Positions 5,934 through 32,228 of a stretch of 50,251 bases of DNA are shown here, piece after piece. How positions within the stretch are numbered: the stretch's first letter is position 1; every line of letters begins with the position of its first letter. The stretch is taken from positions 1 through 50,251 of the forward strand of contig MPNL01000022.1 of assembly GCA_002239005.1 (NCBI GenBank). The letters are read 5' to 3'. Below the pieces are notes generated by a model, which did no database searches, was not told the origin of the DNA, and saw nothing but the letters and a program-made list of their open reading frames with translations. The position numbers and the translations under genes are program-made. This DNA is from Truepera sp. bin119 (lineage in GTDB: Bacteria; Deinococcota; Deinococci; Deinococcales; Trueperaceae).

Positions 5934-7385
5934 ATGGCCGCCCTCTATCAGAGCGCCAGGCCGATCGTGTTCGAGCAGATCGTCGGCCAAGAGCACGTCA
6001 GGGAGGTGCTTGCCGCCGCTATCACCAGGGCCAGGTTGGCCCACGCCTACCTCTTCTCGGGGCCGAGGGGGGTGGGCAAGACGACTATCGCGAGGCTACT
6101 GGCGATGGCGGTTAACTGCCCGGAGGTGGAGGGGCGTAACGGCCCGTGCGGCAACTGCCAATCCTGCCAGGAAGTTCAGCGGGGCAGCCACCCGGATGTA
6201 GTGGAACTCGATGCGGCCAGCAACAACTCGGTAGAGGATGTCCGCGACCTTCGCGAGAAGGCCGGGTTGGCCGCGCTCCGCGGGGGGACCCGGGTCTGGA
6301 TCCTGGATGAGGCCCACATGCTAAGCCGGGCAGCCGCGAACGCCCTCTTAAAGACTCTCGAGGAGCCGCCCCCGGGGCTGATGTTCATCCTCGCCACCAC
6401 CGAACCCGAAAAGCTCCCCCCCACGATCCTCTCCCGCTGCCAGCACTTCCGGTTCCGGAGACTCTCGGAGTCCGAGATCGCCTCGAAGCTGACCCGACTC
6501 TGCGCCGACGCAGGTGTCGAGGCCGCACCCGAGGCGATCGAACTCGTCGCCCGGACCTCGGACGGGGCCATGCGGGATGCGGAATCGCTGCTCGAGCGCC
6601 TGCTGACCCTGGGACTGACGACGGGGTCGCCGATCACCCTGGCCGCCGCCGAAGAGGCCCTCGGCCTCCCCCCTCACAAACGCCTGCAGCACTTAGCCTC
6701 GGCACTGGTTGCTGGGGACCTCGCCGAGGTGCTCGCCACAGCCGAGGCCCTCTACCGGGAGGGGTTCGCGCCGCGCACGATCGCCTCCGGCCTGGGGGCC
6801 ACGCTGCGCGAGGCGGTGCGGAGCGCCTGGGGCGGGGAGGGCTTCGAACTCGAAGCGGATCCGAACGACCTGCTGAGGCTCCTCCACGCCCTCGACGACG
6901 AGAAGGACCGGTTCGTCCGTAGCGAGGATCTCTACGCGCTCGAGCTCGCCCTCATCAAAAGCTCGAACGCCCTGTCGGGCAATCTTCCCTCCGCCCCATC
7001 CCCCGCGACCGGGGGCCCTGCGATCGAGGCCCCTGCCCCGGCGGGGGAGGCCGGCTCGCCGCAAGGACGGACTCTTCGGGTCCAGGTCCACGAACCGACC
7101 CCGCAGACCACCACCCCCGAGGAGCCCCAGCCCGCCCCGAGCAGACCGTTCAGCTGGCAGCAGGTCAGAGCCCGCGCCGGGGCGCAGCTCAAGGCCTTCC
7201 TGATGCCCGCCCGCGAGACCATCGAAGCGACCGAGATCACCCTCCACTATGGGCCCACCCACCGGTTTCACTACGACCGGCTGCAGGAGCGGCTCTCCGA
7301 ACTTCAAGACCTCGTGGCGGAGGTTGCCGGTCCGGACTACCGGGTCACCCTCTCCGGTCCGGACGGTAGCAAAAAAAAACTCTAA
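5934..7385 (+). CDS. dnaX: DNA polymerase III gamma/tau subunit, short product
   Basis: The clamp-loader motor ATPase of the replicase. The 483-residue frame shows Walker A GPRGVGKT (43-50), the zinc module with cysteines 62, 72, 75 and 78, Walker B WILDEAH (about 123-128) and the SRC sensor in TILSRCQHFRF. Domain III ends near residue 340, followed by a Pro/Ala-rich linker and a further folded stretch (SWQQVRARAGAQLKAF onward). The zero frame ends as S-KKK-L-stop, where KKK is encoded by nine A (7371-7379). Slippage there would open the -1 frame and add a 130-residue tail (612 residues in all). It is followed by ybaB and recR, a classic bacterial arrangement. Confidence 0.95.
   Translation: MAALYQSARPIVFEQIVGQEHVREVLAAAITRARLAHAYLFSGPRGVGKTTIARLLAMAVNCPEVEGRNGPCGNCQSCQEVQRGSHPDVVELDAASNNSVEDVRDLREKAGLAALRGGTRVWILDEAHMLSRAAANALLKTLEEPPPGLMFILATTEPEKLPPTILSRCQHFRFRRLSESEIASKLTRLCADAGVEAAPEAIELVARTSDGAMRDAESLLERLLTLGLTTGSPITLAAAEEALGLPPHKRLQHLASALVAGDLAEVLATAEALYREGFAPRTIASGLGATLREAVRSAWGGEGFELEADPNDLLRLLHALDDEKDRFVRSEDLYALELALIKSSNALSGNLPSAPSPATGGPAIEAPAPAGEAGSPQGRTLRVQVHEPTPQTTTPEEPQPAPSRPFSWQQVRARAGAQLKAFLMPARETIEATEITLHYGPTHRFHYDRLQERLSELQDLVAEVAGPDYRVTLSGPDGSKKKL
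7371..7379 (+). promoter_or_regulatory. A9 slippage site in dnaX
   Basis: Nine consecutive A form three AAA lysine codons, two codons before the zero-frame stop. Addition of one A in the transcript, or a -1 ribosomal shift, leads without a stop into the frame that codes for the tail at 7380-7771. Thermus thermophilus dnaX uses a run of A at the corresponding place for transcriptional slippage to make tau and gamma. Here the polarity is reversed: the unslipped message gives the short protein. Confidence 0.7.
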
Positions 7386-7771
7386 CGGCGGCAGGGGTGC
7401 AGCAGGAGACCGCCTCCCCCGGCGAAGCCTCCCTGCCGGACCCCGCCGAACCGCCGGATCCCCGTCCGGATCAGCAGCTCGACCCGGTCGCCGAGACCGC
7501 AGGGGAGCCGCCCGCCGAACTCTCCCGGCCTGAGGTCTACCCGGAAGAGGAACTCCCCCCCGACTTCTGGGGCCCCTCCGACCCCGACCCGGCAGCCGCG
7601 ACGCCAGCGACCGAGCCCCCCTCGGCAGAGACGGCCAGAGCCGTAGCCCGCCTCCAAGCCCTCTTCCCCGGCAGGATGGTGCGCTTCGTTCCGACCCCGC
7701 CAGCCGACGCCAAGGGAGAGACGGGCCCTGGGCGGGCCGCTGACGCCCCAGACGAGAGCGACCAAGAGTAG
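7380..7771 (+). CDS. dnaX: C-terminal tail of the long DnaX (tau-like) product, reached by frameshift
   Basis: From the A run the -1 frame reads TLTAAGVQQE and continues for 130 residues to a stop at 7769-7771. The first half is acidic and Pro-rich (low complexity). The end, ARLQALFPGRMVRFVPTPP, looks folded and resembles the LLGGRVLW stretch that I recall near the end of Thermus tau, where the subunit contacts the polymerase. A GTG at 7397 could start a separate small protein, but there is no SD site and the codon use continues that of dnaX. A fusion to DnaX is therefore the better reading. Confidence 0.65.
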
Positions 7772-7824: not shown

Positions 7825-8136
7825 ATGAACATACAGAAACTCATGAAGGAAGCGCAGAAGGCGCAGCGGAAGATGGCCGAAGCTCAAGAGCGCCTAACCG
7901 AACTCTCGATCGAGGCGAGTGTCGGGGGGGGTATGGTCCGTATCCAGGCGAGCGGCGACGGCACGGTCACCGGGGTGAAGATCGAACCCAGCGCGATCGA
8001 CCCGGACGACCCCGAGTTGCTGGAGGACCTCCTGACAGCCGCCATCGGCGAGGTGCAGCGGAAGGCCAAAGAGCTGCAGGAGCGGGAGCTCGGCTCGGCC
8101 ATGGGGGGGCTCAGCGGGCTTCCGGGCCTGTTCTGA
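7825..8136 (+). CDS. ybaB: YbaB/EbfC nucleoid-associated protein
   Basis: A 103-residue protein of the usual length. It has the N-terminal helix MNIQKLMKEAQKAQRKMAEAQ, the central GGGMVRIQASGDGTVTGVKI strand pair, and the C-terminal helix with LEDLLTAAIGEVQRKAKEL, all typical of YbaB/EbfC. These proteins form tweezer-like dimers that bind DNA and coat the nucleoid; they are nearly always encoded between dnaX and recR, as here. It ends 15 bases before recR and is likely co-transcribed with it. Confidence 0.93.
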   Translation: MNIQKLMKEAQKAQRKMAEAQERLTELSIEASVGGGMVRIQASGDGTVTGVKIEPSAIDPDDPELLEDLLTAAIGEVQRKAKELQERELGSAMGGLSGLPGLF

Positions 8137-20452: not shown

Positions 20453-20560
20453 TTTTCAATGGGGCCACTGCCTGTCAGCAGTGGAAACGAGGGGGGCGAG
20501 CTGGGGGACACAGGCCAACCTCAAGCTGCAATGGGGCCACTGCCTGTCAGCAGTGGAAAC
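20453..20560 (-). CRISPR. Two-repeat mini-array upstream of csb1 (candidate CreR-type guide RNA gene)
   Basis: Two 36-base repeats (20525-20560 and 20453-20488) flank one 36-base spacer (20489-20524). They face opposite to the main array and to the cas operon. Both share a loop variant (CTGTCAG in place of CTTTCAG on the plus strand). The leader-side repeat also has one change in its last 8 bases (ATTGCAGC against ATTGAAGC); the distal repeat differs in its last two bases. The palindromic stem is intact, so processing by the Cas6-like part of Csb2 is plausible. In crRNA direction the spacer begins TTGAGGTTGGCCTGTGT, which matches the csb1 leader at 16 of 17 positions. This points to self-regulation rather than immunity. 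Confidence 0.85.
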
Positions 20561-20709: not shown

Positions 20710-21912
20710 ATGATCTTAGAGCTAAACCACATCAAAGAAGCCCTAGCAGGCAACGCGGCAGCTTTTCGTTGCGTTACCGAGTTCCAGCCAGCCGGCGGCC
20801 CCGGAGACAAGATTTTCCCGCCCACCTACCAGGGCAGCCAGGGCAGCACTTACGCCACTGAGGCACGACACATCAACGGGGAAAATGTCGACTGTGTGCT
20901 TCTGGACTCAGTGCAGTCCCAGGCAAACCGCATGGAGTTGGCGTTGCTGGAGGAATGGGAGTCCGGGAGGGCACCGCTGCCGGTCATCACCGTGGACTTT
21001 ACCGGAATCGACCTACCCCAACCCTTCAAGGTTACTAGCCTGGAAGCGCCCCACCGCATCGCGGACGCCCTCCTCCGCGACAGCGAACTGGACGGAATGA
21101 CGTTCCGCCAGTCGGAAACTGGCAAGAAGCTGGATACTCTCAGCCTCAGCAATGCCACCGCCTTGTTCGAGTTATGCCCCACCGCCCTGGTTTTCGGTCT
21201 TTGGGACTCAACCGGGCCCCGTGGTGGCCTCGGGGTCAAATTCCAGCGAGCTCTAGTGTCGGAGATTGTGGGCTATCATGCCCAACAAGGCAAAAAGACG
21301 CAGGGCCGGATTGATCCAGCGCGGATTCGAAAAGACGCTGGACCAGTGTACCGTACTAGAGATGGCGGTTGGACTCTGGAACAGTCCGAGGCCGGAGAAC
21401 GGAACAGCAAAGGAGTACGGCCCTCCGAAGTAAATCATGGCAATATTGTCCCGTCGATTGCCGACGGTGGATTCACCATCAGCAAGGCCGTGCAGACCAC
21501 CGTGCTTTCCCTGCCTGCTTTGCGTCGGCTGCGTTTTCCCATCGGTGAGGGTGGCCCGGTTTCTCAGGTAGATTTGGCAGCCCGCACCGCTCTGGCGGCT
21601 CAGGCCCTCTTTGCCGCCACCCTGGTGCGGGAGCAGGGGGCCGACCTCCGCTCCCGCTGCTTGTTGTTTGCCACCACTCCCGTGGCCTGGGAGTTGCTAG
21701 ACCGCCCCGGAGACGAACCCCGGAAGTTTGACTTCCCCGTAGAGCAAGCCCTCAAGGTCTATCGACAGTCGGTGGACGAGGCCAGGAAGGCCGGGCTCCC
21801 ATGGCTGGAACAGGAACTAGTCCTGAAACCGTCGCACCAATTGCAGAAGCTGGTCCGGCTAAGTCAAAAGCTAGACCTCGATGTAAAGCCTGATGCCGAG
21901 GAGGAGCAATGA
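20710..21912 (+). CDS. csb1: Type I-G Cas7 backbone protein Csb1
   Basis: A 400-residue protein of the Csb1/GSU0053 family, the Cas7-type subunit that coats the crRNA in type I-G effectors. Recognisable parts are FQPAGGPGDKIFPPTYQG near residue 25, the YATEARHINGENVDCVLLDSVQSQANRME block (about 47-75), AHRIADALLRD-like APHRIADALLRDS, and LVFGLWDSTGPRGGLGVKFQRALVSEIVGY (about 160-190). The C-terminus is charged. It is the first gene of the operon, 59 bases after a strong promoter, with SD AAGGAAAGG. Its last 4 bases overlap csb2 (ATGA). Confidence 0.92.
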   Translation: MILELNHIKEALAGNAAAFRCVTEFQPAGGPGDKIFPPTYQGSQGSTYATEARHINGENVDCVLLDSVQSQANRMELALLEEWESGRAPLPVITVDFTGIDLPQPFKVTSLEAPHRIADALLRDSELDGMTFRQSETGKKLDTLSLSNATALFELCPTALVFGLWDSTGPRGGLGVKFQRALVSEIVGYHAQQGKKTQGRIDPARIRKDAGPVYRTRDGGWTLEQSEAGERNSKGVRPSEVNHGNIVPSIADGGFTISKAVQTTVLSLPALRRLRFPIGEGGPVSQVDLAARTALAAQALFAATLVREQGADLRSRCLLFATTPVAWELLDRPGDEPRKFDFPVEQALKVYRQSVDEARKAGLPWLEQELVLKPSHQLQKLVRLSQKLDLDVKPDAEEEQ

Positions 21913-23480
21913 TTGCTATCGGCATACGCTACCTAAACGGTTGGTCAATGGCCACCAATACCGCCGACCGGGAGCGCCCCGAGTGGCCACCCCATCCCGA
22001 CCGGGTCTTCATGGCCTTGGTCGCTGCCCATTACGAGACAGACGGGAGTGACGGCGAGTCGAAAGCATTGCTCTGGCTGGAGCATCAAGAGCCTCCGAAT
22101 ATGTGGGCTAGCGACTTTTCACAACGAAAAGCCATAACCAGTTACGTTCCGGTCAACGACGAGACTACCTGGCAGAATCTAGATCGGCCCGGATCTAAAC
22201 CCAGGATGATCCCCTCGGCAGCGGGATTGATCAAGGCTAAGGGCGTCAGCGAAAAGCTAAAAAAACTAAAGGGTTCCGGCTTGGGTGTGCTGCCAGAACA
22301 CCGCTCCCGCCAACCCCGTCCATTTCCAGTAGCCATTCCTCACGACCCCCACGTACACTTCATCTGGCCGGAGCCCCCCTCGCCAGAGGTGCGGGTGGGG
22401 TTGGAATCCCTCTGCAGCAAGGTGGTCAGGATCGGGCATTCGGCCTCGTTGGTCCAAGCTTGGGTCGATGACGCCCCTCCTGAGCCCAACCTGATACCGA
22501 TGTCGGCGGACGACCAGCATTCGTTGAGGGTGTCCGCTGATCGAGTGGTTGACATCAACACGGGTGAAATCCTCCCTCAACGAATGTTGAGGGTATCCGC
22601 CCCAGGTCGGCTAGAACACCTGAAGACCCAATACGGAAGCGGGCTTAGACCTGAACGCTCACGGTGGGTTGCCTACTCCCGGCCGCAACCGGAGAGCCAA
22701 CCGGCAGCGCCGGGCGGTGTCTTCCGTGACCGGCTGCTGGTGCTGCGCAGGGTGGACGGCAGGCTGATGGGACTGGAAAGCACCCTCACACTCACCAACA
22801 AACTTCGCAATGCGGTGCTCAAAAACTGCCCTGAGCCGGTCCCAGAATGGATCGGCGGACACGCTCGTGATGGCCGACCATCGCAGAAACCGCACGCTGC
22901 CTTTCTGCCCCTTCCCTTTGTCAATCACAAACATGCTGACGGACACCTGCTCGGCCTCGCCCTGGCTATACCGAAGTACATTGAGCAGGCGGAAGTGGGC
23001 CGGCGCCTCAACCTCATCATGGGTTTCGAAGAGGATGGCTCCCCGCGTCGGGTACACCTTTACAACGGAGCCGATTTTGACTGGTTTTTGGAAATAGAAG
23101 CCAGGGTGTCGCCTCCGGTTGCTTTGCAGTCTGAAGTCTGGACCCGTCCTGCCCGGCACTGGGCAACGGTAACTCCTATCGTCTTTGATCGTCATGCCAA
23201 AGGGCGCGACAAGGAGCGTCAGGAGAAACGCATGGTGGAGAAAGCCTGCGAAAGGATTGGATTGCCCCGCCCCGTAGAGGTAGCCCTCAGTCAGGTAAGC
23301 CTGCACACCGGTGTTCCTCACAGCCGGTCATTTCCTTCCATACGGCGCAAGTCTGATGGTGGGCAGTTACGGCACCTTCATGCAGCCATCACATTCGAGA
23401 GAGAAGTCAGAGGCCCGGTCATTCTAGGTGCTGGCCGTTACCGAGGGTATGGTCTGTTCCGCCCGGTCCAGAGGGGGTGA
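21909..23480 (+). CDS. csb2: Type I-G Cas5-Cas6 fusion protein Csb2
   Basis: A 523-residue Csb2/GSU0054 protein. The N-terminus (IAIGIRYLNGWSMATNTADRERPEWPPHPDRVFMALVAA) has the Cas5-like start with the typical EWPP-x-P-x-R. The C-terminal third ends LRHLHAAITFE...RGPVILGAGRYRGYGLFRPV, a RAMP glycine-rich loop like that of Cas6. In type I-G this one protein both cuts the repeat RNA and holds the crRNA 5' end. Histidines in the last 50 residues (HLHA, and SLHTGVPHSRS) are candidates for the ribonuclease site. It is coupled to csb1 by a 4-base overlap and ends 6 bases before cas3. Confidence 0.9.
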   Translation: MIAIGIRYLNGWSMATNTADRERPEWPPHPDRVFMALVAAHYETDGSDGESKALLWLEHQEPPNMWASDFSQRKAITSYVPVNDETTWQNLDRPGSKPRMIPSAAGLIKAKGVSEKLKKLKGSGLGVLPEHRSRQPRPFPVAIPHDPHVHFIWPEPPSPEVRVGLESLCSKVVRIGHSASLVQAWVDDAPPEPNLIPMSADDQHSLRVSADRVVDINTGEILPQRMLRVSAPGRLEHLKTQYGSGLRPERSRWVAYSRPQPESQPAAPGGVFRDRLLVLRRVDGRLMGLESTLTLTNKLRNAVLKNCPEPVPEWIGGHARDGRPSQKPHAAFLPLPFVNHKHADGHLLGLALAIPKYIEQAEVGRRLNLIMGFEEDGSPRRVHLYNGADFDWFLEIEARVSPPVALQSEVWTRPARHWATVTPIVFDRHAKGRDKERQEKRMVEKACERIGLPRPVEVALSQVSLHTGVPHSRSFPSIRRKSDGGQLRHLHAAITFEREVRGPVILGAGRYRGYGLFRPVQRG

Positions 23481-23486
23481 TTTGAA

Positions 23487-26435
23487 ATGAACGCGGCACA
23501 ATTTGACGAGTTCTTTAAATCCCTCTATGGCTATGGCCCGTTCCCGTGGCAGGCTGAACTGGCCCGCCAAGTTGTAGAGGCCCGACCGGATGATGCCTGC
23601 TGGCCAAAAGCGCTGGCCCTGCCGACTGCGGCTGGTAAGACTGCCTGCATCGATATGGCAATCTTCGCCCTGGCCTGCCAAGCAGACCGTACACCCGGGG
23701 AGCGTACTGCTCCCCGGCGCATATTCTTCATAGTGGACCGTCGGGTAATTGTAGACGAGACATTCGGGCGAGCACGGAGGCTGGCCGAAGCCTTGCACAA
23801 GACTACAAGCGGCATCCTGAAGGATGTAGCAGACAGATTACGCCTCCTCGCGCAGGAGGACGACCCGCTAGCTTGTTTTCAACTCCGCGGTGGGATGTAT
23901 CGTGATGACGCGTGGGCTCGGTCGCCGCTTCAGCCCACCGTGGTTGTCACCACAGTCGACCAGTTCGGCTCCCGGCTCTTATTCCGGGGGTACGGGTCCG
24001 GCGCGGGCATGCGGCCCGTTCACGCCGGGCTGGCCGCCAATGATTGCCTGTTAATCCTTGACGAAGCCCACTGTGCTAACCCCTTCCGCCAGACGGTTGC
24101 TTCAGTGCAACGCTATCGGACGTGGGCTTCGCAGTCCGGCTACATTGGTTCCGCCCCTTTCCACCTGACTCTGATTTCAGCCACACCCCCTCACGACATC
24201 ACGCGCGAGGACCGCTTCGCTGACAAAGACAAGGACCGAGCGCACCCGGTGTTCGGCAGACGCATCAATGCATCTAAACCTGCCAGCCTGAAGATTGCTA
24301 AGGAGGCGCAAAAGAAAAATGCCCTGAAAAAGTTGGCCCAGCATGCAGCCGCCGAGGCAGTCAAGCTGGTGAGTGACGGTGACGCGCGCAAAGCGATCGG
24401 AGTAATAGTCAACCGGGTTGCTACAGCGCGGCTAGTGTATGAACACTTGGTCAAGGAAGGCAAGGATGTCGTTCTGCTGACCGGGCGGATGAGGGCCATC
24501 GACCGGGATGAAGTTCTCCGTGACCTGGAATCACTGAAGACCGGTGCCGATAGAGAGGAACGGACGCGCTTCATTGTCGCTACGCAAACCCTGGAGGTGG
24601 GTGCAGACCTGGACTTCGATGGGCTGGTAACTGAGTGCGCTAGTCTCGACGCCCTGAGACAGCGTTTCGGACGCCTGAACCGGGATGGGCGTTCCATTGA
24701 TTCCAGGGCAGTTATTGTCATCCGGGCCGACCAGACCGAAGCCAATAGTAAAGCAGCAAACGATCCGGTCTATGGCGAGGCCCTCACCAAAACCTGGCAG
24801 TGGCTTGGTGAGAAGGCCGGTGATGACGGCATAGACTTCGGCTACACGGCTATGCACAACCTTCTTCCTGACTCCCCGGAAGAGTTGGCGAAACTGTGCC
24901 AGCAGGCACCGAATGCTCCAGTGATGCTGCCCGCTCATCTGGACGCCTGGGTACAAACTTCGCCTATTCCTCATCCCGATCCAGACGTGTCTCCGTTTCT
25001 GCATGGCCCCAACCGTGGCGCGCCAGAGGTTCAGGTCTGCTGGCGAGCCGACCTGCACGACATGTCGCTAGAACAGCAGGTTGAGATTGTGAGCCTGTGC
25101 CCTCCAGTATCGTCAGAATGTATCTCGGTCCCCATTCACAGCTTCCGTCGCTGGCTCGAGGGAACGGGTAGCAACGTCGACCATGAAGACAGTGACGTAG
25201 AAGGGACCCTTTCTCCTGATAAAGACTTTGGAAAGCACAGCAACATTCAACACAACGTCATCTGCTGGCGCGGGCCGGAGGAGAGCGGGCCGGAGAAGAG
25301 TCGTCTGCTCACCGAACATTCAGACCTCGCAGACCTGCGCCCCGGCGATACAGTGGTTATCCAGGAGGAACTGCGGGGATGGGAGACCTTCGGGCACATA
25401 CCTGAAGGTCCCGACGGAAAGCGAATTATAGACTTAGGAGACCGGGCACATCTTCAGTCTCGAGCGAAAGCCGTACTGCGTGCCAATACCAAAGTGGTGG
25501 AATCATGGCCCGATTTGGCAAAGGACTGTTTGAAGGGAATCTCCAACCGATCTGAGGATTCCGAGGGTGATGGGGGCGATGACGAAATCCAGCAGTCTCT
25601 TGAAGCTCTAGCGGAGCTAGAGATGCCACCTGAATGGGAATGGCTGAAAGACGCCGCATCGGCACTAGCCCGAGACACACGCCGGAAGAGGCTAACGCAT
25701 CCCGGAGGCGGCTTCGTGCTGCAAGGCTCCCGCCGGGTACAGAAATATATGAGATCGGCTTCAACCCCTACTAGTGAGGATCATTCCTCTTCGGCCACAG
25801 TGCGAGTTACACTAGCCGACCATCTAGAGGGGGTAAAACGATGGGCCAGGCGCTTCGGTGAGGGAGTTAGCCTGCCGAGTAAGCTGGTAAATGACCTGAC
25901 CCTGGCAGGCCGATCCCACGACGTGGGCAAAGCTGATCCTCGATTCCAGGCGATACTGCACGGTGGTCATCCATGGGCCGCCCTGGTTGGCGGGCCACTT
26001 CTTGCTAAGTCGGGCAACCTCCCTTCCGGCTTGGTGGAATACCGGCGCGCTTGCCGAGAGAGCGGATACCCTCGAGGCTCCCGCCACGAACTGCTTTCGG
26101 TGCGTCTGATTGAGAGCGTGCCCGGACTACTGGAATCTGCTCATGATGAGAACCTGGTATTGCACCTAGTTGCCAGCCACCACGGCCGTTGCCGACCCTT
26201 GGCCCCGGTGGTGGCCGATGATGAGTCGGTCAAGGTGGAGATCCTCGGCATGTCAGCCACCAGCGCCACCGGTCTGGAGCGGCTAGACAGCGGCGTGCCG
26301 GAACGCTTCTGGCGGCTGGTGCGGCGCTACGGGTGGTGGGGCCTAGCCTGGTTGGAAGCCCTGATGCGCCTGGCCGACCACCGCTCTAGCGAGGCTGAGC
26401 AGAAAGCTCACGATGACGCCGATAGTCAGGGCTGA
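23487..26435 (+). CDS. cas3: Type I-G Cas3 helicase-nuclease with C-terminal HD domain
   Basis: A 982-residue protein with the reversed domain order of type I-G/I-U Cas3. The superfamily 2 helicase comes first: Walker A ALPTAAGKT (Lys51), motif II DEAH (192-195), motif III region LISATPP, and motif VI around RQRFGRLNRDGR. The HD nuclease comes last: RSHDVGKADPRF (His811, Asp812) and HLVASHHGRCRPLAP. It unwinds and degrades target DNA recruited by the effector. All motifs look intact, so the system should be active. SD GGGGTGATTTGAA is modest. Confidence 0.93.
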   Translation: MNAAQFDEFFKSLYGYGPFPWQAELARQVVEARPDDACWPKALALPTAAGKTACIDMAIFALACQADRTPGERTAPRRIFFIVDRRVIVDETFGRARRLAEALHKTTSGILKDVADRLRLLAQEDDPLACFQLRGGMYRDDAWARSPLQPTVVVTTVDQFGSRLLFRGYGSGAGMRPVHAGLAANDCLLILDEAHCANPFRQTVASVQRYRTWASQSGYIGSAPFHLTLISATPPHDITREDRFADKDKDRAHPVFGRRINASKPASLKIAKEAQKKNALKKLAQHAAAEAVKLVSDGDARKAIGVIVNRVATARLVYEHLVKEGKDVVLLTGRMRAIDRDEVLRDLESLKTGADREERTRFIVATQTLEVGADLDFDGLVTECASLDALRQRFGRLNRDGRSIDSRAVIVIRADQTEANSKAANDPVYGEALTKTWQWLGEKAGDDGIDFGYTAMHNLLPDSPEELAKLCQQAPNAPVMLPAHLDAWVQTSPIPHPDPDVSPFLHGPNRGAPEVQVCWRADLHDMSLEQQVEIVSLCPPVSSECISVPIHSFRRWLEGTGSNVDHEDSDVEGTLSPDKDFGKHSNIQHNVICWRGPEESGPEKSRLLTEHSDLADLRPGDTVVIQEELRGWETFGHIPEGPDGKRIIDLGDRAHLQSRAKAVLRANTKVVESWPDLAKDCLKGISNRSEDSEGDGGDDEIQQSLEALAELEMPPEWEWLKDAASALARDTRRKRLTHPGGGFVLQGSRRVQKYMRSASTPTSEDHSSSATVRVTLADHLEGVKRWARRFGEGVSLPSKLVNDLTLAGRSHDVGKADPRFQAILHGGHPWAALVGGPLLAKSGNLPSGLVEYRRACRESGYPRGSRHELLSVRLIESVPGLLESAHDENLVLHLVASHHGRCRPLAPVVADDESVKVEILGMSATSATGLERLDSGVPERFWRLVRRYGWWGLAWLEALMRLADHRSSEAEQKAHDDADSQG

Positions 26436-26446
26436 GGAGAAGTAAG

Positions 26447-27406
26447 ATGACCGAACAGAAACAGAAGGGCCTAGTCCTTACTGGTTTGGACGGCACCAAC
26501 CCGCTGGCGTTCCTGGCGGCCCTGGGAACGTTGCGGGGTCTCACCCTAGCCTGGCCGGAGCGTCAGGTCTGCCTCTCCTGGACGCTGCTCGATTCCTGGC
26601 GTCCCACCCTCCATGTAGACGAAGGCACACCCAGTGAAGACGAGGCACTGAACGGGGTGGAGCGTTTTACGGAAATGCGACCAGGACATGAGGCTTTGAG
26701 AATCGCAGATAGTCTCACTATTCATGTGGACGAATTCCGCACCCATGCCCTTGATGCAGCTTTAGCTGCTGATCCTTCCCTCGAAGGGCGGTCAGCAGCG
26801 GACTTCATAGCTGCATTTGGCTGCGACGCCATTAAGCCTGCCGACCAGGAAGGACGGATTCAGGATACCGCATTGCGTACTATGAGCGGCACTGGACATC
26901 AGCATTTCCTAAAGACCATGCGCGAACTCACCGAGAAAGTCAATCGAGACAAGATTTGGCAGAGTTTGTTTCATCGCTGGGAAAGGAAAGATCCCCAACT
27001 GTCCCTGCGCTGGGACCCGGAAGAGGACCGCCGGTACGCATTACGGTGGAAAAACCCTAGTGATGATAAGGTCAGAGTCAAAGGCAAAAGTGGCGCGCCA
27101 ACCGAATGGGGCGCTAACCGCCTAGCCTTTGAAGCCTTGCCACTCTTCCCTGTCATGCCGGTAGGCCAGGGAATTCAAACCACCGGGTTCTCAGGAAACC
27201 GGAGCCACGATACATTTTGGACATGGCCTATCTGGGACGTTCCTGCCGACCTAGATACCGTGCGTTCCTTGCTCGCATTACAGGATCTCCAAAGAAACTA
27301 CATCGACCGCACGGCACTGGCCGCTATGGGTATCCGTCAAGTCTTCAAGTCCCAACGAATAACCTTCGGGAAATATCGCAGCTTTGCCCCGGCCATCCCG
27401 GTATAG
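26447..27406 (+). CDS. Type I-G large-subunit-like protein (Cas8g/Csb3 position), short
   Basis: A 319-residue protein placed where type I-G operons encode the large subunit (Csx17/Cas8g or Csb3). It starts LVLTGLDGTNPLAFLAALGTLRGL, the N-terminal pattern of these proteins (a short strand, then NPL-x-FLAALG-x-L). Further on are HQHFLKTMRELTEKV and an aromatic basic end with FKSQRITFGKYRSFAP. Its role would be PAM recognition and Cas3 recruitment. At 319 residues it is much shorter than Csx17-type subunits (as recalled, often 600 or more), so it is a compact variant. An SD site (GGAG) lies in the 11-base gap after cas3. Confidence 0.65.
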   Translation: MTEQKQKGLVLTGLDGTNPLAFLAALGTLRGLTLAWPERQVCLSWTLLDSWRPTLHVDEGTPSEDEALNGVERFTEMRPGHEALRIADSLTIHVDEFRTHALDAALAADPSLEGRSAADFIAAFGCDAIKPADQEGRIQDTALRTMSGTGHQHFLKTMRELTEKVNRDKIWQSLFHRWERKDPQLSLRWDPEEDRRYALRWKNPSDDKVRVKGKSGAPTEWGANRLAFEALPLFPVMPVGQGIQTTGFSGNRSHDTFWTWPIWDVPADLDTVRSLLALQDLQRNYIDRTALAAMGIRQVFKSQRITFGKYRSFAPAIPV

Positions 27407-27441
27407 CCCGCAGCAACCAATCAGGGAGAGTGAGGCTGGCG

Positions 27442-29196
27442 ATGACCATAGATGCCCCGGAAACCGTGTCAACCCCCGCCAGCCCTGATTCCGAAACATC
27501 CATAAGCAAGCTCCCGGAGTTGGTCCCCGCGCGAATGCTCAACGAGTATGCCTACTGCGCCCGTCTGGCCTACCTGGAATGGGTGCAGGGCGAGTTCGCC
27601 GACAACGTTGACACCGTCGAGGGCCGCTTCCAGCACCGCCGGGTGGACCGCCCATCAGGAAACCTGCCCTGGCCTCCTGACAAAGATGGTGTTGATCCGG
27701 TAGAAGAAGGCGGTCTTGGACCGGAGACCATCCACGCCCGCTCCGTTCTGGTATCCGACGAGTCCCTGGGAGCAATCGCCCGTATTGACCTAATAGAAGG
27801 TCAGGGCGACTCAGTTACCCCAGTGGACTATAAGCACGGCAAAGTCCCCGACCTGCCGGAGGGAGCGTGGGAGCCGGAACGGATCCAAACCTGCATCCAG
27901 GGACTGCTGCTACGCGCCAACGGGTATACCTGCAACGAGGGAGTGCTCTACTTCGTGGAGTCCCGCCAGCGAGTGACGGTCCCTTTTGACGATGCCCTCG
28001 TCTCCCGGGCGCTGGAGTTGTTATCGGGGATCAGAAACATGGCAACATCGGGGCAAATTCCCGAACCACTGAAGGACAGCCCCAAATGCCCAAGATGCTC
28101 CCTGGTAGGCATTTGCCTTCCAGACGAAGTGAACTTCATTTCCGCGAAGGGACAGACCGTTAGGCCCGAGGATGTTCGGCGGATGACCCCGGCCAGGGAC
28201 GATGCGATTCCTGTATACGTACATTCCCAGGGGGCTGTTGTTGGCAAGTCGGGAGACCAGTTGGAGGTAAAAAAACAAGGACAAACGCTGCAAAAGATTC
28301 GTCTGATGGAAGTCTCACACCTGTCCGTTTTTGGCAACGTCCAGATCACCACCCAGGCGCTCCGAGAGTTGTGCAATCGGAACATCCCCATCTGCTACTT
28401 CACTTACGGCGGGTGGTTCAGTGGCATCACCACCGGAATGAGCCACAAGAACGTGGAACTGCGTTGCCGGCAATACCTGGTAGCAATGACGCCCGAAACC
28501 GCGTTGCCTATCGCCCGCCGGATGGTCTTCGGAAAGATAAAAAACTGCCGCACTCTGATGCGCCGAAATCACTGGGAGCCGCCTGTTGCCACCCTGGCGG
28601 AGTTAGGCCGGCTGGCGGATCAGTCACAGAAGGCCCTATCACTCGATACTCTGCTGGGCATTGAGGGGGCTGCGGCCCGCACCTACTTCTCGGAGTTCCA
28701 GGGCATGATCAAGACCGAGTCCCTGAGTTTCGACTTCCACGGGCGGAACCGGCGTCCGCCTCGGGACCCGGTGAACGCTGTTCTCTCATTTCTCTATGCC
28801 ATGCTAATCAAGCAAGCGATGGTTACAGCTTTCACAGTGGGCTTTGATCCTTACCTGGGGTTCTACCACCAGCCCAAGTACGGCAAACCCTCCCTCGCCC
28901 TAGACCTGGTGGAGGAATTCCGTCCTCTGATTGCGGACTCGGCATGCCTGACCCTCATCAACAACGGAGAACTGGGACCGAAGCACTTCATTGTCAGGGG
29001 AAACGCGACGGCCCTCACCCAGAACGGTCGCCGCAAGGTCATAGAAGCCTTCGAGCGGCGGATGGACACTCTGGCTACACACCCCCTTTTCGGATATGCC
29101 GCCAGCTACCGCCGCATCCTGGAAATACAGACCCGACTGCTGTCCAGGCATCTTCTGGGTGAACTGCCAGTCTATCCAGTATTCAGAACGAGGTAG
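27442..29196 (+). CDS. cas4-cas1: Cas4-Cas1 fusion adaptation protein
   Basis: A 584-residue fusion typical of type I-G. The Cas4 part (about 25-230) has Cys39 in YCARLAYLE, the VDYKHGKV nuclease motif and the cluster Cys216, Cys219, Cys225 (CPRCSLVGIC), which together bind an Fe-S cluster. The Cas1 part (about 250-584) has Glu408 (LLGIEGAAA), His476 (GFYHQPKYGKPSL) and Asp488/Glu491-Glu492 (LDLVEEFRP), the metal-binding integrase residues. Cas4 trims prespacers and selects the PAM; in the Geobacter type I-G system the fusion gives TTN. GTG 27430 is an alternative start. It lies 2 bases before cas2. Confidence 0.95.
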   Translation: MTIDAPETVSTPASPDSETSISKLPELVPARMLNEYAYCARLAYLEWVQGEFADNVDTVEGRFQHRRVDRPSGNLPWPPDKDGVDPVEEGGLGPETIHARSVLVSDESLGAIARIDLIEGQGDSVTPVDYKHGKVPDLPEGAWEPERIQTCIQGLLLRANGYTCNEGVLYFVESRQRVTVPFDDALVSRALELLSGIRNMATSGQIPEPLKDSPKCPRCSLVGICLPDEVNFISAKGQTVRPEDVRRMTPARDDAIPVYVHSQGAVVGKSGDQLEVKKQGQTLQKIRLMEVSHLSVFGNVQITTQALRELCNRNIPICYFTYGGWFSGITTGMSHKNVELRCRQYLVAMTPETALPIARRMVFGKIKNCRTLMRRNHWEPPVATLAELGRLADQSQKALSLDTLLGIEGAAARTYFSEFQGMIKTESLSFDFHGRNRRPPRDPVNAVLSFLYAMLIKQAMVTAFTVGFDPYLGFYHQPKYGKPSLALDLVEEFRPLIADSACLTLINNGELGPKHFIVRGNATALTQNGRRKVIEAFERRMDTLATHPLFGYAASYRRILEIQTRLLSRHLLGELPVYPVFRTR

Positions 29197-29489: not shown

Positions 29490-29692
29490 TAGGCAGACAA
29501 CGCCGCTTCGTATTGCGAGAGGTCCAGTAGTGAAGACCTCCCGTTGCACCCCTCGCAACTATTTGGCCATAAAACTGATCATTGTGCGTGTTGAGCCGAT
29601 ATGAATGGGTTACGAATTGCAGAAATAAGAAATATTTACGGCGAAAGCTGCACTACCTCATGGCTGACGTCCGAGTTGGGTCACAAATAGCT
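29490..29692 (+). promoter_or_regulatory. Leader of the type I-G array
   Basis: A 203-base non-coding stretch between cas2 and the first repeat, AT-rich in the middle (29570-29645, with GAAATAAGAAATATTT). Its place beside cas2 and the decay of the far end of the array make this the leader side, where new spacers enter and array transcription starts. No single promoter stands out. Confidence 0.65.
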
Positions 29693-32192
29693 GTTTCCAC
29701 TGCTGAAAGGCAGTGGCCCCATTGAAGCAACTTGACGCCGGCAGCGCCCCCGGGACCGACCAGGGTTTCCACTGCTGAAAGGCAGTGGCCCCATTGAAGC
29801 GATTTCGACCACTCCTTGCTCCAGTCGATGTGGGGAAGTTTCCACTGCTGAAAGGCAGTGGCCCCATTGAAGCCACACTCCACGATTTCAGGCCAGGCCA
29901 GGAGAACGAGTTTCCACTGCTGAAAGGCAGTGGCCCCATTGAAGCGAGTGACGCTGCACACGGCGAGGGGCGCATTCCCGAAGTTTCCACTGCTGAAAGG
30001 CAGTGGCCCCATTGAAGCTGGATCATGGTGCCGGCTGGCCTGCTCGGGCTGGCGTGTTTCCACTGCTGAAAGGCAGTGGCCCCATTGAAGCGTCACCGAG
30101 TCGGTCATGCCTCGAGTCGAGCGGGCGGGTTTCCACTGCTGAAAGGCAGTGGCCCCATTGAAGCGGTATCGCCAGCCTCCTGTCCGGGTTGTAGCTCCCA
30201 GTTTCCACTGCTGAAAGGCAGTGGCCCCATTGAAGCCTATTGGTGGCCACCAGGTCCATGAGGCAGTCAACCAGTTTCCACTGCTGAAAGGCAGTGGCCC
30301 CATTGAAGCGAGTACGAGTTCTCGATGTGCCGGCGGTGGCGGAACAGTTTCCACTGCTGAAAGGCAGTGGCCCCATTGAAGCCTACTGATGGCGAGACTC
30401 TATAACATCACCCTGCAGGTTTCCACTGCTGAAAGGCAGTGGCCCCATTGAAGCCGTGGCGGGTCCGGATTCCACCGACCGGAAGTGCCAGTTTCCACTG
30501 CTGAAAGGCAGTGGCCCCATTGAAGCGACGCGGCCCAGACCAAGGAGCTGACCGTGGCCCTGGTTTCCACTGCTGAAAGGCAGTGGCCCCATTGAAGCCC
30601 AGGTGGTGTCTGTTCAGCCGGTCCACTCTCCGAGGTTTCCACTGCTGAAAGGCAGTGGCCCCATTGAAGCTTCTTCGAGTTTGTGCTCGCTTTTCAGCAG
30701 GCCTTGGTTTCCACTGCTGAAAGGCAGTGGCCCCATTGAAGCATGGCCTCCTGAATCAAGCTGATGCCCTCGGGCACAGTTTCCACTGCTGAAAGGCAGT
30801 GGCCCCATTGAAGCGTCTAGCCTCAGCCTGTGCGGTGTCGGCGGTTTGCTGGTTTCCACTGCTGAAAGGCAGTGGCCCCATTGAAGCGGTGGTTGCAGCG
30901 ATCACGACTGCTCTACAATCGCTGTTTCCACTGCTGAAAGGCAGTGGCCCCATTGAAGCCTGCTAGCCGTGCCGCTGGTGGTGGTCGACAAGATCGTTTC
31001 CACTGCTGAAAGGCAGTGGCCCCATTGAAGCTTGATCATCCCGTCCCACTTTTTGGCTGCGTCGCCCAGTTTCCACTGCTGAAAGGCAGTGGCCCCATTG
31101 AAGCTGCGCCGTGCCGCCGATACTGACCGTGCCAGTCAAGTTTCCACTGCTGAAAGGCAGTGGCCCCATTGAAGCATTAACGGCCGCTTTGAAGAGCTCG
31201 ACGCGCTCGCTGTTTCCACTGCTGAAAGGCAGTGGCCCCATTGAAGCCGGATCGAGGGCAGCACCTTTTCCATCCACGCTGCCTGGTTTCCACTGCTGAA
31301 AGGCAGTGGCCCCATTGAAGCACGCTCGACGACAATGAGGATGTCGCTTTTCAAAAGTTTCCACTGCTGAAAGGCAGTGGCCCCATTGAAGCCTGTGTAC
31401 GGAGTATGGGAAGTGTTACCAGACAATAGTTTCCACTGCTGAAAGGCAGTGGCCCCATTGAAGCCCCGTTCTGCGAGGACAAGTCGGTAAAGGTCGACCT
31501 GTTTCCACTGCTGAAAGGCAGTGGCCCCATTGAAGCATCCGGACTCGAGCCTCGCCACCACCGCAGTAGACCCAGTTTCCACTGCTGAAAGGCAGTGGCC
31601 CCATTGAAGCATCGGACAAATCAAAGCGATACTACACGCAGAGGCTAGTTTCCACTGCTGAAAGGCAGTGGCCCCATTGAAGCCTTCTAACCCTGCTGAC
31701 CCCCCTCGCCGCGGCCCAGGTTTCCACTGCTGAAAGGCAGTGGCCCCATTGAAGCCCCGTTCTGCGAGGACAAGTCGGTAAAGGTCGACCTGTTTCCACT
31801 GCTGAAAGGCAGTGGCCCCATTGAAGCGGCTATAATCTCCCCTATGTCCCCGCCTCCACCGTCCGGTTTCCACTGCTGAAAGGCAGTGGCCCCATTGAAG
31901 CTCCTCAGCGCAGGTGACGACCAGGCCGCGGAAGGCTAGTTTCCACTGCTGAAAGGCAGTGGCCCCATTGAAGCGAGGATCGGATTATCAAGCTCACCGC
32001 CGACGAGTCCGGTTTCCACTGCTGAAAGGCAGTGGCCCCATTGAAGCATCTGCCCGAGGAGCGTCTTCTGACTCTGGGTGACAGTTTCCACTGCTGAAAG
32101 GCAGTGGCCCCATTGAAGCTGGCCGTAGCCGATGGTGGGATAACCGGCTAAGTCGTGTTTCCACTGCTGAAAGGCAGTGGCCCCATTGAAGG
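29693..32192 (+). CRISPR. Type I-G CRISPR array, 35 repeats and 34 enclosed spacers
   Basis: Thirty-five copies of a 36-base repeat start at 29693, 29765, 29838 and so on to 32157. The repeat begins GTTTCCACTGCTGAAAG, has a 7-base stem CCACTGC/GCAGTGG, and ends CCCCATTGAAGC. The final ATTGAAGC resembles the 8-base 5' handle of many crRNAs, so the plus strand is the guide strand. Spacers are 35-38 bases, mostly 36-37. All repeats are identical except the last, which differs in its final base (32192). The spacer at 31465-31500 is repeated exactly at 31756-31791. Uniform repeats and full cas genes suggest a live array. Confidence 0.97.
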
Positions 32193-32228
32193 GCAGGGCA
32201 GCCGGTCGGCAAGCAGCTGTTCAAGCTG

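Follow-up and report, generated by a model that had tools for sequence, protein, structure and literature searches.

The dnaX gene of Truepera sp. bin119 raises the question of how the long product of the gene, tau, is obtained when the frame written in the DNA ends one codon past a run of nine A and encodes a short, gamma-like protein, and of whether the ribosome or RNA polymerase would be the machine that slips there. The gene lies in a stretch of 50,251 nucleotides, the whole of which is here called the window.

Reading frames at the dnaX locus

The protein encoded in the window is DnaX, as it matches NCBIfam PRK14963 with 646.6 bits against a cut-off of 601, and its best matches among solved structures are E. 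coli gamma/tau. In the phase of dnaX the site reads AGC AAA AAA AAA CTC TAA, and the -1 frame joined at 7379 runs to a stop at 7769-7771, giving 482 + 130 = 612 aa. The features of the locus are the following:

5934-7385, + strand: dnaX zero frame, 483 aa, the short gamma-like product, ending in KKKL and the stop; matches PRK14963
7371-7379, + strand: run of nine A (A9), in phase with dnaX
7373-7379, + strand: -1 slippery heptamer A_AAA_AAA within the A9, in the same phase as the heptamers of 28 relatives
7383-7385, + strand: zero-frame stop TAA, one codon past the heptamer, its position the same in 31 of 31 family sites
7379-7771, + strand: -1 frame tail, 130 codons plus stop, the tau-specific C-terminal part of the 612-aa product
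7553-7570, + strand: LPPDFW motif in the -1 tail (family consensus LPxDFW)
7661-7675, + strand: LFPGR motif in the -1 tail, its F and G invariant across 18 aligned tails
7825-8136, + strand: ybaB/ebfC-like gene 3' of the -1 tail, also near the tail end in relatives
7386-7456, + strand: position in the window of the relatives' conserved hairpin; CGGCGG (7386-7391) could pair, weakly, with CCGCCG (7451-7456)

The lengths given in a preliminary description of the sequence, 483 aa for the unshifted product and 612 aa by way of a -1 frame open for 130 codons, were reproduced, and the distance from the A9 to the stop, given there as two codons, is in fact one (CTC). This run is the only A9 on either strand of the bin119 assembly (3.2 Mb), a draft genome of 91 contigs in which A7 or longer occurs at 26 places. 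The genes after the dnaX tail look like ybaB, followed by recR.

Elsewhere, positions 20710-29196 of the window hold the type I-G (I-U) CRISPR-Cas genes cas7g/csb1, cas5-6g/csb2, cas3g, cas8g and a Cas4-Cas1 fusion, with CRISPR arrays of about 72-nt spacing at 29680-32200 and 20457-20560. The larger array has about 35 repeat copies, and a repeat-spacer block in it appears duplicated, because 31429-31536 is identical to 31720-31827.

Conservation of the site and of the -1 tail in Trueperaceae

By named loci and by GTDB kinship the window falls in Trueperaceae. Counting the window, 33 Trueperaceae dnaX loci are readable across the site, and 31 of them have a zero-frame stop one codon past the site together with a -1 frame open for 76-288 codons. 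They share the layout NNA AAA AAR NNN stop, in some cases varied, and CGG usually comes next. The heptamer is A_AAA_AAA at 17 of the 31 sites (window counted) and A_AAA_AAG at 12; at L054 it is G_GGA_AAA (CCG GGA AAA GCC TGA CGG), where the A run is replaced and the stop and hairpin are retained, and at L018 the site is A_AAA_ATA, a poor heptamer and the sole one that is not valid (30 of 31 are). The two exceptions to the layout are L007, which has one long frame and lacks the A run, and L014, in which an A9 is found and tau is in the zero frame. L014 looks like a switch back from the family cassette, since both of its side frames close near the run (the double-stop signature) and in the DnaX tree it is grouped, with strong support, as the sister of L009 and L012, both A6G species. 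The reversed polarity proposed for the window is borne out by the 30 other family members that keep the layout; the same relatives agree in frame and register, and the length of the run, the other feature for which conservation was to be checked, is not kept, as most family sites have only six or seven A.

Relative to an A7 heptamer site, the A9 of the window has two extra A at its upstream end with the register unchanged, and since it stands in the family register, an assembly error and a recent frameshift are both ruled out. In the sister lineage L003 the site has A7 with a hairpin of 6 bp, for which reason the A9 probably arose within the lineage of the window, where the loss of the hairpin may be offset by the longer run.

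The -1 tails of the family are of low complexity and share LPxDFW and LFPGR, and at measurable loci they end anywhere from 4 nt inside ybaB to 140 nt before it. Searched with a profile of these tails, L007 (E 1.9e-12), L014 (9.4e-9) and the Deinococcaceae-like L114 (2e-6) match in their zero-frame C-terminus, and Meiothermus does so weakly. By eye, the LFPGR region corresponds to the C-terminal LFGGR/LFPHR tau segment of Thermaceae and Deinococcaceae. Codon position 3 of the -1 frame is the one most often substituted in 11 of 11 pairs, broadly as in the zero frame upstream. Searches with the tail alone against Pfam, NCBIfam and PDB profiles found nothing; what supports the tail is the comparison of relatives within the class. 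To this extent the longer form in the preliminary description is borne out: its tail is real tau sequence, conserved across relatives.

These observations bear on two other explanations of the locus. A homopolymer in a draft of this kind might be suspected of having been misread or misassembled, or else a dnaX otherwise in a single frame might have suffered a recent frameshift, and tau does lie in one frame in Deinococcaceae, in most Thermaceae and in L007 and L014. However, the same register, stop and -1 tail recur in 30 other family members, and with 8 or 10 A the site would disagree with all of them, which makes such an accident hardly credible; the relatives already refute it, barring a family-wide coincidence. 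Uninterrupted single frames in relatives, to which the preliminary description had pointed as the mark of an error, occur at only 2 of the 33 readable loci (L007 and L014), and an error or recent frameshift is ruled out. Alternatively, the cell might make the short form only, the -1 frame being a non-functional remnant or being translated separately from an internal GTG or TTG, and both the low-complexity, Pro/Ala-rich nature of the tail and an internal GTG open reading frame from 7397 would suit this idea. It is nonetheless very unlikely in view of the retention of LPxDFW and LFPGR over deep divergence, the match of the tail profile to the single-frame tau of L007 and L014, and the conservation of the frame junction along with heptamer and hairpin.

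The slipping machine

Over the 30 family sites other than the window, the mean folding z is -2.85 for 32-nt segments starting 6 nt past the heptamer, -1.91 for those starting at 0 nt, and about zero elsewhere. A stem-loop about 5-9 nt 3' of the heptamer is thus found at the level of the family, its stem usually opening directly behind the zero-frame stop, 6 nt past the heptamer. In the 29-nt hairpin class, which was picked by hairpin length, somewhat favouring pairing, and consists of related sequences, 92.9% of cells pair, against 46-56% when the partner is displaced by one, two or three columns; double changes are seen in 12 cells, a number that 0 of 500 shuffles reach. In the window, the 45 nt examined show no simple hairpin above shuffles (z +0.62), and a longer fold at 7386-7460 has z -2.08 with 6 of 200 shuffles as good, a borderline value; several lengths were tried. 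Upstream, a Shine-Dalgarno-like element lies within the best 8% of local background at 17 of the 31 family sites, an enrichment that is suggestive only because a conserved GPxG peptide is encoded there, and the upstream scan of the window gave no convincing stimulator of this type.

Trueperaceae dnaX very probably works by programmed -1 ribosomal frameshifting with its polarity reversed, on a cassette of heptamer and hairpin, with the ribosome, the polymerase or both acting in the window. Ribosomes that stay in frame would stop one codon past the slippery site and release the gamma-like short form, and those that slip -1 on A_AAA_AAA or A_AAA_AAG, delayed by the hairpin 6 nt downstream, would bypass the stop and produce tau with its C-terminal tail. 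In the species of the window, where the run would have lengthened to nine A with loss of the simple hairpin, tau would arise through a ribosomal -1 slip on A_AAA_AAA inside the run, through addition of an A by the polymerase, or through both. The sequences show the frames, the register, the conservation of site and tail and the covariation of the hairpin; that frameshifting occurs, how efficient it is and which machine is responsible in this species are what we infer from them.

RNA polymerase slips poorly on A6G, on A7 and most of all on GGGAAAA, sites that suit tandem slippage of tRNAs well, and in -1 frameshifting it is the ribosome on which a positioned hairpin acts. There is accordingly a family-wide pattern to consider: classic heptamers on short runs, followed by a compensated hairpin, indicate a ribosomal cassette and not mainly polymerase slippage, and the G_GGA_AAA of L054, a valid tandem-slippage heptamer that offers RNA polymerase no long homopolymer, likewise favours the ribosome. 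For Trueperaceae as a family this makes a good case for slippage by the ribosome. The slippage of RNA polymerase that had been put forward as the mechanism is unsupported as stated, with most relatives having A6G or A7, one having G_GGA_AAA, and most carrying a positioned hairpin. Against the ribosomal view stand the poor heptamer of L018 and, in the window, the missing simple hairpin and Shine-Dalgarno-like stimulator. Moreover, most Trueperaceae seem, by pattern searches, to have tRNA-Lys(CUU) besides tRNA-Lys(UUU), and a review suggests that in Thermus the presence of two lysine tRNAs makes a ribosomal shift on AAG less favourable (PMC5009743). When AAG and AAA heptamers are set against tRNA-Lys content, most genomes have both tRNAs, in searches that miss divergent genes and that found no tRNA-Lys(UUU) in the draft genome of the window.

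A further sign comes from the third frame. It is under no constraint in the cassettes of Trueperaceae, where the +1 frame has a median of 54 codons, whereas at the A8-A10 sites of Thermaceae, Deinococcaceae and relatives the second-longest frame has a median of 4 codons (Mann-Whitney p = 2e-8, relatedness ignored). Early closure of both side frames at these A8-A10 sites is as expected if the polymerase delivers all three frames, and the stopping of both non-tau frames near the run was taken here, from Thermaceae and Deinococcaceae, as the signature of slippage. The window does not show it: its zero frame closes after 1 codon and its +1 frame stays open for 50 codons, which groups it with the family cassettes.

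It is possible, at distinctly less than an even chance, that in the species of the window RNA polymerase slips on the A9, alone or beside ribosomal shifting, with ten-A messages giving tau and nine-A messages gamma. RNA polymerase has been shown to slip on nine A, and in many genomes selection against runs prone to slippage can be seen at this length (PMC1088944); a run of nine or more A is present in the window and absent from the reversed-layout relatives (A6-A7). The uniqueness of the A9 in the bin119 assembly and the lack of a simple hairpin in the window also suit the polymerase, as does the class to which it belongs, since Thermaceae carry A9, in one case A10, at the homologous dnaX site and Thermus thermophilus dnaX is reported to use transcriptional slippage (PMC5009743). 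On the other hand, in register and architecture the window agrees with the family's A6G/A7 cassettes with hairpin, its sister L003 has A7 with a hairpin, and its +1 frame is open for 50 codons, where slippage-type sites usually close both side frames within a few codons. On balance the ribosome appears somewhat ahead of the polymerase in this species.

Deinococcaceae and most Thermaceae have tau in the single, templated frame. In the Thermaceae L058, L061, L068 and L073, the position of the A9 or A10 puts tau in the -1 or the +1 frame instead of the templated one, which suggests that polarity drifts freely where all three frames get produced. Among the Deinococcaceae-like or f3 relatives, L114 and L117 have tau in the zero frame and an A8 or A9 followed by a segment that folds better than shuffles, and L113, whose zero and +1 frames are both long, has a similar run and segment (z -3.1 to -3.7 for the three); an E. 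coli-type cassette is possible in these loci.

Known dnaX systems and the history of the site

Reversed-polarity dnaX, a rare kind of gene, is already known (PMC3711429, PMC5009743), and the Trueperaceae add a new case with a fuller comparative record. For a GeneTack cluster, Antonov et al. (2013) described 17 such genes in 12 genera and ascribed to transcriptional slippage the 12 genes that carry poly-A runs, mostly A10 and also A9, A8 and A7 (PMC3711429), and a 2016 review names a reversed-polarity candidate with E. coli-like stimulators in Chlorobium phaeobacteroides (PMC5009743). A literature search that covered few subscription journals found no paper on reversed dnaX in Truepera. As in the cluster genes so described, tau needs recoding in Trueperaceae, the zero frame ends just past the poly-A and the shift is -1 (PMC3711429, PMC5009743); unlike those genes, mostly A10 in that account, Trueperaceae have A6G or A7, a covarying hairpin, family-wide occurrence and the G_GGA_AAA variant. 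The A_AAA_AAG heptamer, the 3' stem-loop a few nt away and, in part, the upstream Shine-Dalgarno-like element are shared with E. coli dnaX, whose cassette is matched in kind by heptamer and hairpin spacing. In E. coli, however, the shift leads to gamma and the zero frame to tau, and Trueperaceae are reversed in this respect, with the stop sitting in the spacer between heptamer and hairpin. With Thermus thermophilus, of the same class, the window shares an A9 at the homologous place, but there tau is templated and both other frames stop nearby, whereas the window templates the short form and its third frame is open.

Tentatively, and with a probability not far short of even, the dnaX recoding site was kept through the class Deinococci while the slipping machine and the polarity changed, the window being a dual-mode intermediate in which polymerase and ribosome would both slip on its one run. 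Under such a history, a polymerase-type A8/A9, as in Thermaceae and Deinococcaceae, would have become a reversed ribosomal cassette in the ancestor of Trueperaceae, and a few lineages would have moved back towards A9, namely the window, with decay of the hairpin, and G007, with the polarity flipped back.

The family offers a natural series, A6G, A7, GGGAAAA, A9 and loss, in which to study the way ribosomal recoding gives place to transcriptional recoding, or the reverse, at a single site. An annotation pipeline that goes no further than the zero frame would leave out the tail of tau throughout the family. Slippage efficiency would set the ratio of tau to gamma in an essential replication gene, and, as slipping here yields the subunit with the tau tail, low efficiency would starve the cell of tau and not of gamma.
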